Assembly: GCA_023145965.1 (NCBI GenBank)
Contig: JAGLDC010000033.1
Coordinates: 1-35,004 of the forward strand
DNA: 35,004 nucleotides
Direction: 5' to 3'
DNA from: a bacterium
GTDB lineage: Bacteria; UBP14; UBA6098
In this document: positions 25,219 to 27,810 of the stretch, one piece after another
Position numbering within the stretch: the stretch's first letter is position 1
How the letters are laid out: every line of letters starts with the position of its first letter
Position numbers and translations under genes: made by a program
Notes under the pieces: generated by a model
Databases searched by the model: none
What the model was told of the DNA's origin: nothing
What the model saw: the letters and a program-made list of their open reading frames with translations, nothing else

Positions 25219-26085
25219 CTATTTATCAGGGTAATATCCTGCACCGACGACATATACTATATCTCCAAAAGGTGCCTTTTTTAAAAATACTCGCTTGGTG
25301 TTTACCTTACCGTTGTTGGGACGTGGCCATTTATATTCATACCAAAGCTCATCTTGTTCAACTAAAAGTCCCAGCTCCTCTTTGACAAAAAGTTTGCCAT
25401 CGGCATCCGTAAGGTCGATTATATTCTTCCCTTCCAAGCCAGGGTTCAATGGATTTAATATTTCATTGCCCTTCATATCTTTAATGAAGACATAGCTGTT
25501 CAGGAAAATAAACTCGCCATTTTGGTCGGATATTTCATCGAAGGCCTCAGGGCCGTTAGCTACAATCAGATCCACCGCCCTGATAACAATATCCTTAATA
25601 AAAGCCGGCTCACAGGGCATATCATATTTCCCGCTACCAACAAGATAAGCGTTGCCTTCAAGGGTTATAGCTTTTGCAATGTAGGTTGTTTTCCATGTTG
25701 GAATCTCATCGTTGGGTTTGGGCCATCTATAATGAACCCATCCGGCGCCAACATTGGCTCTCTCAATAAAAAGCTTACCAATGGGCCTCCCATCGACATC
25801 CTCGAGGTCTATCATATTCTGGCCCTCACCGGCAACATCTGGAGGATAGACATAGCGCATCCCATTGAGCCCCCATACAAAAATATAATCGTCGCCTTTA
25901 AACCACTCAGAATTTTCTTCTCTAAATCGAGTAAAAACCGAAGTTCCTTCGCTTTGAATTAATTGAACCGCTTTCTCGACAAACTTAACCAATTCTTTTG
26001 TTTGTTGATGTTCATATTCGACCTCGGTCGACAGAACAGATAAAACCATTAAGAGCGAAACAACGATACTGATGACCAAGCGCAT
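25219..26085 (-). CDS. Secreted protein with two tandem Cache-like domains
   Basis: A 288-aa protein. ATG 26085 is chosen because AAGGAGG sits just before it; an in-frame ATG at 26124 lacks an SD and would spoil the signal peptide MRLVISIVVSLLMVLSVLST. Two repeats follow: about 30-155 (KFVEKAVQLIQSEG, DDYIFVWGLNGMRYVYPPDV, GQNMIDLEDVDGRPI, WVHYRWPKPND, YLVGSGKYDM) and about 162-288 (IVIRAVDLIVANG, NSYVFIKDMKGNEILNPLNP, GKNIIDLTDADGKLF, WYEYKWPRPNN, VYVVGAGYYPDK). These match single-Cache (Cache_2-like) extracellular sensor domains, which bind small ligands in receptors. No transmembrane output module is present, so it is probably periplasmic, perhaps a binding protein for another receptor. 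Confidence 0.8.
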   Translation of the reverse strand: MRLVISIVVSLLMVLSVLSTEVEYEHQQTKELVKFVEKAVQLIQSEGTSVFTRFREENSEWFKGDDYIFVWGLNGMRYVYPPDVAGEGQNMIDLEDVDGRPIGKLFIERANVGAGWVHYRWPKPNDEIPTWKTTYIAKAITLEGNAYLVGSGKYDMPCEPAFIKDIVIRAVDLIVANGPEAFDEISDQNGEFIFLNSYVFIKDMKGNEILNPLNPGLEGKNIIDLTDADGKLFVKEELGLLVEQDELWYEYKWPRPNNGKVNTKRVFLKKAPFGDIVYVVGAGYYPDK

Positions 26086-26232: not shown

Positions 26233-26260
26233 TTGACAAATTCTAGTTTATAAATATTAT
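26233..26260 (+). promoter_or_regulatory. Promoter of the structured RNA
   Basis: TTGACA (26233-26238), 16 bp, TATTAT (26255-26260). The expected start at about 26266 coincides with the 5' side of the RNA's closing stem (26264-26275), which supports the boundaries. Confidence 0.75.
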
Positions 26261-26263
26261 GAC

Positions 26264-26502
26264 TTGATCTTCGATAACGTTCTTTTCGGTATTTGCCCTA
26301 CTCCTAAACGCTTAATAGCGTTAACGCCGTTGGAAAATGCGGGATTAGTGAGTGCCGCTTTTTGGGGTTCATCGTTGTATTTCCCCTCCTTTCCCCAGCG
26401 ATGGCCCCACTCCGACGGTTTAGGAGCTTTTTCCCTTCATTTTCTGCCCCTGGATCGAAGATTAAAATCTCACTTAAAAGCGCCGCTCTTGCGGCGCTTT
26501 TT
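26264..26502 (+). ncRNA. Structured non-coding RNA with long-range helices and an anti-Shine-Dalgarno loop; family not recognised
   Basis: No convincing ORF lies here, but helices nest cleanly. P1 26264-26275 with 26454-26465 (12 bp, one G-U). P2 26301-26309 CTCCTAAAC with 26418-26426 GTTTAGGAG (9 bp). A small hairpin at 26307-26323 uses AACGC/GCGTT and partly competes with P2. P3 26327-26333 CCGTTGG with 26412-26418 CCGACGG (one G-U). P4 26334-26342 with 26355-26363 (AAAAtGCGG/CCGCtTTTT). P5 26364-26374 with 26399-26408 (GGGG/CCCC and CATCG/CGATG). The P5 loop (26375-26398) is C/T-rich and contains CCTCCTTT at 26385-26392, identical to the 16S rRNA anti-SD. Between P1 and P2 is a large 25x27-nt bubble. 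A strong promoter precedes it and a terminator ends it. A closing stem plus bubble recalls 6S RNA, but the branched apical part does not; tmRNA, RNase P and SRP motifs were not seen. Confidence 0.75.
26476..26502 (+). terminator. Intrinsic terminator of the structured RNA
   Basis: AAAAGCGCCGC - TCTT - GCGGCGCTTTTT: seven G-C pairs plus A-T extension and a T run. No plus-strand protein gene precedes it within 1.7 kb, and the upstream protein genes 24706-26085 run the other way, so it must serve the RNA unit starting near 26266. Confidence 0.93.
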
Positions 26503-26508
26503 ATTTAT

Positions 26509-26537
26509 TTGATTTTCTTTTAAATGTGCTATATAAT
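26509..26537 (+). promoter_or_regulatory. Promoter of the serpin gene
   Basis: TTGATT (26509-26514), 17 bp, TATAAT (26532-26537), directly after the RNA terminator. Leader about 60 nt to ATG 26602, with GGAG seven bases upstream of the ATG. Confidence 0.65.
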
Positions 26538-26601: not shown

Positions 26602-27810
26602 ATGTATAGAATCTCAAGCCTAATATTTGTTTTGGTTTTCGCTTTAATTTCAGTTTTGAATGCCGGGTCGAAATCGCCCGAAAAAACTGATGTCATAATA
26701 ATTCCATCGCTCATCGAGGGCAATAATTTGTTCGCCTCCGAGATGTATAAGCAACTTGCAACCGAAGAAGGCAACATCTTTTTTTCGCCTTATAGCATCT
26801 CGTCGGCAATGGCAATGACCTATGGCGGCGCAAAGGGTAATACCGCAATCGAGATAACCTCAGCACTGAATTTTTACCTCGAAAACGACATACATCCTGC
26901 CTTCGGCAACCTCCAAAACCAGCTACAAACAACCGCTAAAACCTCCGGAATAAAACTCGATATAGCCAACGCCCTTTGCCTCACCGGCGGCGATGTTGAA
27001 AGTAGTTATAAATCTCTCCTTGAAAAATACTACTTTGCCGAGGTTTTCAAAGGCGACCTTAAAAAAATTAATTCTTGGGTTAAGGATAAAACCGAGGACA
27101 AAATCGAAAAAATCCTCGACAAGCTCGATGCTAACTCTGTGTGTGTAATTCTGAACGCAATTTATTTCAAAGGAACATGGAACAACTCATTTAAAAAAGA
27201 ATATACATACGATTCAGAATTTTATACCTCTGATGAATCTAGCGTTCCGGTGAAACTTATGTATCAAAATGAGCAATTTAAGCTTGTCGATATGTCAAAT
27301 TATCGTGCGCTGGAATTACCTTACAGCGAAAATGCTATGTCTATGGTCATCCTCCTACCCGAGGAGATCGGCGGTCTTACAAAACTCGAAAAAAAGCTCG
27401 ATTTGAAAGAGTGCCTATCTAAATTGGATGCCGAGAAACCCAAGGATGTGAAGGTTTATATTCCAAAATTCAAACTCGAAACTTCCTACAGTCTTATTCC
27501 TGCTTTTCAACAGCTTGGCATGGTCGATGCGTTTAAACCAGATGTTGCGGATTTCAGCGGTATGGGTTGGCCCAAAGGCGATTTATGGATATCGCAGATT
27601 ATGCATAAAGCCATTGTCGAAGTCAGCGAGGAGGGCACCGAAGCCGCTGCAGCTACTGCTGTTGAAATGGTTACAAAGGCGGTTTACCATGATACAACCC
27701 CCGTTTTCCGTGTTGATCATCCGATTATTTTCATTATTCGAGACAACCAAACCGGGAGTATCCTTTTCATAGGAAGGCTAGTCGAACCAAGCTATGAGGA
27801 TAAAAAATAA
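26602..27810 (+). CDS. Secreted serpin (serine/cysteine protease inhibitor family)
   Basis: A 402-aa protein: signal peptide (MYRISSLIFVLVFALISVLNA, about 21 aa) followed by a full serpin fold. Motifs: NIFFSPYSISSAMAMTYGGA, NAIYFKGTWNNSF, ELPYSENAMSMVILLPEE, IMHKAIVEVSEEGTEAAAAT (breach and hinge) and the C-terminal HPIIFIIRDNQTGSILFIGR. The hinge EEGTEAAAAT (343-352) has the small residues needed for loop insertion, so it should be inhibitory. Counting from P14 T346 puts P1 at K359, suggesting trypsin-like targets, but the loop is a few residues longer on the primed side than in antitrypsin, so P1 could differ. Bacterial serpins are uncommon. It may protect the cell from its own or foreign proteases. 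Confidence 0.95.
   Translation: MYRISSLIFVLVFALISVLNAGSKSPEKTDVIIIPSLIEGNNLFASEMYKQLATEEGNIFFSPYSISSAMAMTYGGAKGNTAIEITSALNFYLENDIHPAFGNLQNQLQTTAKTSGIKLDIANALCLTGGDVESSYKSLLEKYYFAEVFKGDLKKINSWVKDKTEDKIEKILDKLDANSVCVILNAIYFKGTWNNSFKKEYTYDSEFYTSDESSVPVKLMYQNEQFKLVDMSNYRALELPYSENAMSMVILLPEEIGGLTKLEKKLDLKECLSKLDAEKPKDVKVYIPKFKLETSYSLIPAFQQLGMVDAFKPDVADFSGMGWPKGDLWISQIMHKAIVEVSEEGTEAAAATAVEMVTKAVYHDTTPVFRVDHPIIFIIRDNQTGSILFIGRLVEPSYEDKK

Follow-up and report, generated by a model that had tools for sequence, protein, structure and literature searches.

A lineage-restricted RNA family in UBP14 bacteria with an invariant loop complementary to a ribosome-binding site and start codon

The DNA analyzed here, termed the window, is a stretch of 35,004 nucleotides from contig JAGLDC010000033.1 of a bacterium of the UBA6098 group in the phylum UBP14 (assembly GCA_023145965.1). 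On its forward strand, between the start of a divergent sCache gene (26085, − strand) and that of a co-oriented serpin gene (26602, + strand), lies an RNA gene at 26233–26505. The unit is single-copy in the 2.5-Mb, 139-contig draft genome (contig C33). Transcription is predicted to begin at about 26266 from a sigma-70-type promoter composed of TTGACA (26233–26238), a 16-nt spacer, and TATTAT (26255–26260). This promoter, described in an earlier note on the same DNA, was confirmed by a scan with 11 of 12 consensus matches. The gene closes with an intrinsic terminator (26476–26508), which consists of an 11-bp stem (26476–26501) and a U tail and is the sole terminator in the scan.

The RNA is predicted to fold into nested long-range helices that carry local hairpins. 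The closing stem P1 pairs 26264–26275 with 26454–26465 over 12 bp, and the predicted transcription start falls inside its 5′ arm. P2 pairs 26301–26309 with 26418–26426 (9/9 pairs) in the centroid fold, and P3 pairs 26326–26334 with 26411–26419. Nucleotides 26418–26419 are contested by these two helices; the MFE fold contains the full P3, whereas the centroid contains both in part. Three local hairpins are counted: a small one at 26307–26322 (AACGCU-UAAU-AGCGUU), the length of which varies among relatives; hairpin A at 26339–26358; and the apical hairpin B at 26364–26408, with its stem formed by 26364–26377 and 26396–26408. All of the helices, local hairpins, and terminator that the earlier note had drawn are found in the sequence and the fold, with P3 amounting to nine pairs. 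Hairpin A carries the near-invariant GGGAUnnGUGAGUGCC, which keeps its sequence while its pairing register differs by genus, a pattern that may point to a partner recognizing it. The single-stranded stretch at 26427–26451 (UCCCUUCAUUUyCUGCCCC), the second one rich in pyrimidines, is strongly conserved within the genus in the alignment and might offer an additional site for pairing.

Excluding the terminator, the segment 26266–26466 has a folding energy of −66.9 kcal/mol compared with −47.8 ± 4.0 kcal/mol for shuffled sequences (z = −4.7), and 0 of 200 shuffles are as stable. The reverse strand of the same segment reaches only z = −1.1, which means that the fold is strand-specific and not due to chance, bearing out the earlier claim that such complementarity is unlikely to be accidental. 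With the terminator included, the z-score is −6.6. An open reading frame of 82 aa (26264–26512) also spans the unit, as would be the case if the locus were a small protein gene in this or a shorter frame. That explanation is scarcely credible and was rejected, since every frame is broken or shifted across the homologues described below. The conserved frame that the earlier note had named as counting against a structured RNA is therefore absent. Moreover, the lengths of the homologous cores are 94, 95, 95, 98, and 102 nt, their variation follows the stems, and the unit’s open reading frame has no match in Pfam.

Homologues of the RNA are found in 5/5 genomes of the GTDB family. Three belong to one genus (the window’s genome, G000, together with G001 and G002), and G003 and G004 represent two other genera. 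DNA similarity locates the four relatives and nothing else among 98 genomes. A covariance model of the core, with 95 positions, gives E-values from 1e-17 to 1e-26 in the five family genomes. Within a sample of 386 genomes, the model has no convincing match in the 12 other genomes of the phylum (0/12) or in the remaining 369 (0/369). A GTDB-wide pattern scan recovers the four other family members and no additional ones supported by the model. Pattern matches outside UBP14 and three matches from a viral pattern scan were rejected because the covariance model does not match them.

The cmscan check proposed in the earlier note gives no Rfam family for the unit. At the gathering threshold, Rfam has no match in the whole window, and at E ≤ 10 the RNA region has only sub-threshold chance matches, located mostly on the terminator, with 6S, SRP, RNase P, and tmRNA absent from them. 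ARAGORN detects no tRNA or tmRNA. The unit was thus rightly described as being of no recognized family, and its homologues could be collected as had been suggested. We conclude with high confidence that this is a real, new, and lineage-restricted family of structured RNA that Rfam lacks; its host phylum is known from metagenomes alone.

Conservation is concentrated in the inner part of the molecule. P3, the apical hairpin, and the terminator are common to all five homologues, with an overall core identity of 85% and variable flanks. P3 retains 9/9 pairs in 5/5 sequences, and hairpin B has 98% of its cells paired, including A-U, U-G, and G-U at one position. The outer helices are less constant. 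P2 is kept in part within the genus, where alignments show an A-U pair replaced by U-A in G001 and a reduction to 4 bp in G002. P1 undergoes one-sided consistent changes in two homologues of the genus and is gone from G003 and G004, where the ends fold locally. The covariation that the earlier note had asked for is borne out in direction, as the changes are consistent, but not in strength (47/500 in a shuffle control), because there are only five homologues.

The loss of P1 bears on a resemblance to 6S RNA that the earlier note had pointed out. In the window and its genus, a 12-bp closing stem and a large internal loop recall 6S RNA (RF00013), and an RNA of this kind would hold RNA polymerase through its long closing stem and internal bubble. 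In addition, RF00013 detects no 6S RNA in the window, its genome, or any of the phylum’s 16 further genomes, which counts in favor of this reading; however, the model matched only 6 of 14 control genomes, so a missing 6S elsewhere says little. The long closing stem around a bubble forms in the three members of the genus but in neither of the remaining two genera. The likeness accordingly fails as a trait of the family, and the conserved part is the branched apical region, the reverse of what is seen in 6S RNA. Given that RF00013 does not match the RNA itself either, a 6S-like function is very improbable.

The genomic neighborhood was considered for a role as a cis-acting leader of a downstream gene, dnaJ (serpin-dnaJ in the window). 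The RNA lies upstream of a co-oriented dnaJ-type gene in G002, G003, and G004, and in the window dnaJ follows beyond the serpin gene. In G004, the end of a dnaK gene is found upstream of the RNA. However, the link to a downstream gene is not constant, as the RNA of G001 is relocated: there it ends against a convergent gene of the metallo-beta-lactamase fold, followed by neither serpin nor dnaJ, with dnaJ on another contig. The loop of the RNA also pairs poorly with most dnaJ start regions. A G+C-rich terminator hairpin is present in 5/5 homologues, and together with the relocation in G001 it favors a free-standing gene and makes a leader quite unlikely. TTGACA and TATTAT elements precede the RNA in G001 and G002 as well, and TTGCAA-16-TATAGT in G004. 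The stand-alone gene proposed in the earlier note is therefore upheld by promoter and terminator in the relatives and by the relocation. Its argument that the unit is not a leader for lying between oppositely oriented genes stands in its conclusion and only partly in its reasoning: the serpin gene is co-oriented, and it is the conserved terminator and the relatives, rather than gene orientation alone, that speak against a leader. Only in the window does the bacterial serpin gene itself (26602–27810) separate the RNA from dnaJ; G002, G003, and G004 lack it at that position.

The most telling part of the apical region, overlooked in the earlier note, is an invariant C-rich loop. This loop, GYAUUUCCCCUCCUUUCC (26377–26394), is 18 nt long and identical in 5/5 genomes apart from a C/U difference at position 2. 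Read as its reverse complement, GGAAAGGAGGGGAAAUGC, the loop gives an ideal Shine-Dalgarno sequence followed by a short spacer and AUG, and the C/U variant still pairs with AUG through a wobble. The loop includes the core of the 16S anti-Shine-Dalgarno (anti-SD), CCUCCUUUC, which is present at the 3′ end of the family’s own 16S rRNA (GGATCACCTCCTTTCT). A conserved anti-SD motif is thus exposed in a loop of the predicted fold. The loop offers a clear functional handle, as it is complementary to an entire ribosome-binding site together with the start codon.

These features suggest that the RNA is most probably a translational regulator acting through an anti-ribosome-binding-site loop, which we hold with moderate confidence. 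More specifically, there is about an even chance that it is a trans-acting anti-SD sRNA of ~240 nt, restricted to this family and encoded by a free-standing gene; the independent promoter and terminator, which are features of the DNA sequence, agree with this. Transcription of the ~240-nt RNA would start at the gene’s own strong promoter and stop at the gene’s own terminator. A rigid arm formed by P3 and hairpin B would present the unpaired 18-nt loop, and the loop would pair with some mRNAs across their Shine-Dalgarno sequence and start codon. Such pairing would block ribosome entry and repress translation initiation.

Comparable designs are found among characterized sRNAs. NfeR1, of the alpha-r14 family, bears the same CCUCCUCCC loop on three hairpins whose stems have diverged, and it silences ntrB at the start site of that gene (PMC10746234, PMC3927594). 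Along with AbcR1/2 of rhizobia, it is trans-acting, carries an ultraconserved anti-SD loop motif on variable stems, and blocks translation initiation (PMC10746234, PMC3927594), which is the function proposed for the RNA here. In contrast to the three hairpins and 9-nt loops of alpha-r14, the RNA of UBP14 has a single main hairpin, and its 18-nt loop extends as far as the start codon. These rhizobial RNAs belong to another phylum and have no sequence or model relation to it; among the Rfam models for alpha-r14 and alpha-r15 (AbcR), only ar15 gives a match, at 20.1 bits against a gathering threshold of 40 (E 0.088). IsrR of Staphylococcus, a terminator-ended sRNA, has C-rich, single-stranded loops that pair with the Shine-Dalgarno and AUG (PMC9410917), as is predicted here. 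It is grouped with RsaE/RoxS and FsrA as a comparable C-rich-loop sRNA, and no sequence relation to these was found. By analogy, the RNA most likely works like NfeR1/alpha-r14 or IsrR without being related to them.

Any C-rich loop matches Shine-Dalgarno sequences, which counts against reading the complementarity as specific anti-SD action. In favor of that reading, searches of the five genomes with the loop complement AAAGGAGGGGAAATG at ≤2 mismatches give 79 sites compared with 12 for a backward control, and most of the 60 sites inspected are real gene starts. Against it, the flanks of the loop contribute little to pairing with translation start sites beyond the core: relative to loops that keep the anti-SD core but have shuffled flanks, the loop ranks 21/150 by mean and 5/150 by strong sites. 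Across 139 orthologous gene-start pairs, conserved targets show no excess over flank-shuffled loops. In G000, G001, G002, and G004, near-perfect mRNA targets are lacking apart from the antisense strands of the loop in the RNA itself (E1) and of its second copy (E2, described below). Tests for target specificity beyond the anti-SD core were mostly negative, so while the RNA family is firm, we infer that the RNA is made, binds mRNAs, and represses their translation.

Several genes are candidate targets. The start region of the neighboring sCache gene (25219–26085, − strand), which encodes an exported protein, contains AAGGAGGAAGAAATGC and pairs with the loop at −20.2 kcal/mol. Its ortholog in G002 is 60% identical, carries AAAGGAGGAGAGATG, and was matched independently, despite a distance of 57 kb between it and the RNA in that genome. 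The other candidates are the gene for acyl carrier protein, matched in both G000 and G002, and a gene for a membrane protein of ~113 aa, matched in G000 and G001; the best sites of G002 include a gene of similar appearance. Many signal peptides among the loop-complement matches had raised the idea that mRNAs of exported proteins are specifically targeted. This idea was rejected, as the residual preference has p = 0.98 after accounting for Shine-Dalgarno strength. Genes with predicted signal peptides have stronger Shine-Dalgarno sequences than other genes (mean −8.4 versus −6.9 kcal/mol, p = 6e-6, in stretches L201–L240 of G002), which explains the preference.

The exact 18-mer of the loop recurs in a second conserved hairpin, E2, once per genome in 3/3 genomes of the genus (G000, contig C109, 10560–10680; G001, C44; G002, C16), in the sense orientation. 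E2 is located between a gene for a DUF401 membrane protein and a gene for a 158-aa membrane protein. Its consensus fold has a 9-bp outer stem that leaves the motif open, and this stem is unrelated to that of hairpin B. With the core covariance model, weak matches outside the five homologues (E 0.2–8) are attributable to chance, except for two that overlap E2. The presence of one loop on two scaffolds argues that the loop is the working part, and its reuse on a second RNA indicates that the loop, not the scaffold, is what is selected. This reuse also yields a simple prediction, open to testing, about post-transcriptional regulation in uncultured bacteria.

The shared loop gives rise to the main rival of the anti-SD sRNA, in which the loop is a protein-binding site and the RNA titrates a regulator off E2 in the DUF401 operon, in the manner of a CsrB sponge. 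The same 18-mer is displayed as a loop on two stems of no common origin, of which one belongs to a free RNA and the other to the intergenic region of an mRNA. Since both copies have the sense orientation, pairing between them is not possible. The invariance of 18 nt exceeds what an anti-SD seed needs, and the lack of specificity in the target tests fits as well. Yet each RNA bears a single copy, unlike sponges, which usually have many; a candidate protein is lacking; and at ≤2 mismatches E2 is absent from G003 and G004 despite the presence of the RNA. Titration of a protein is thus possible, though doubtful. A broader arrangement is rather unlikely: a two-part RNA circuit in which the 18-nt loop serves as an address on two scaffolds read by the same partner, which could be a protein or else the ribosome-binding site of one particular mRNA, and in which the free RNA competes with E2 of the DUF401 operon. 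In G000 and G002, a small hairpin (GCAC..GUGC) precedes E2, following the stop codon of the DUF401 gene.
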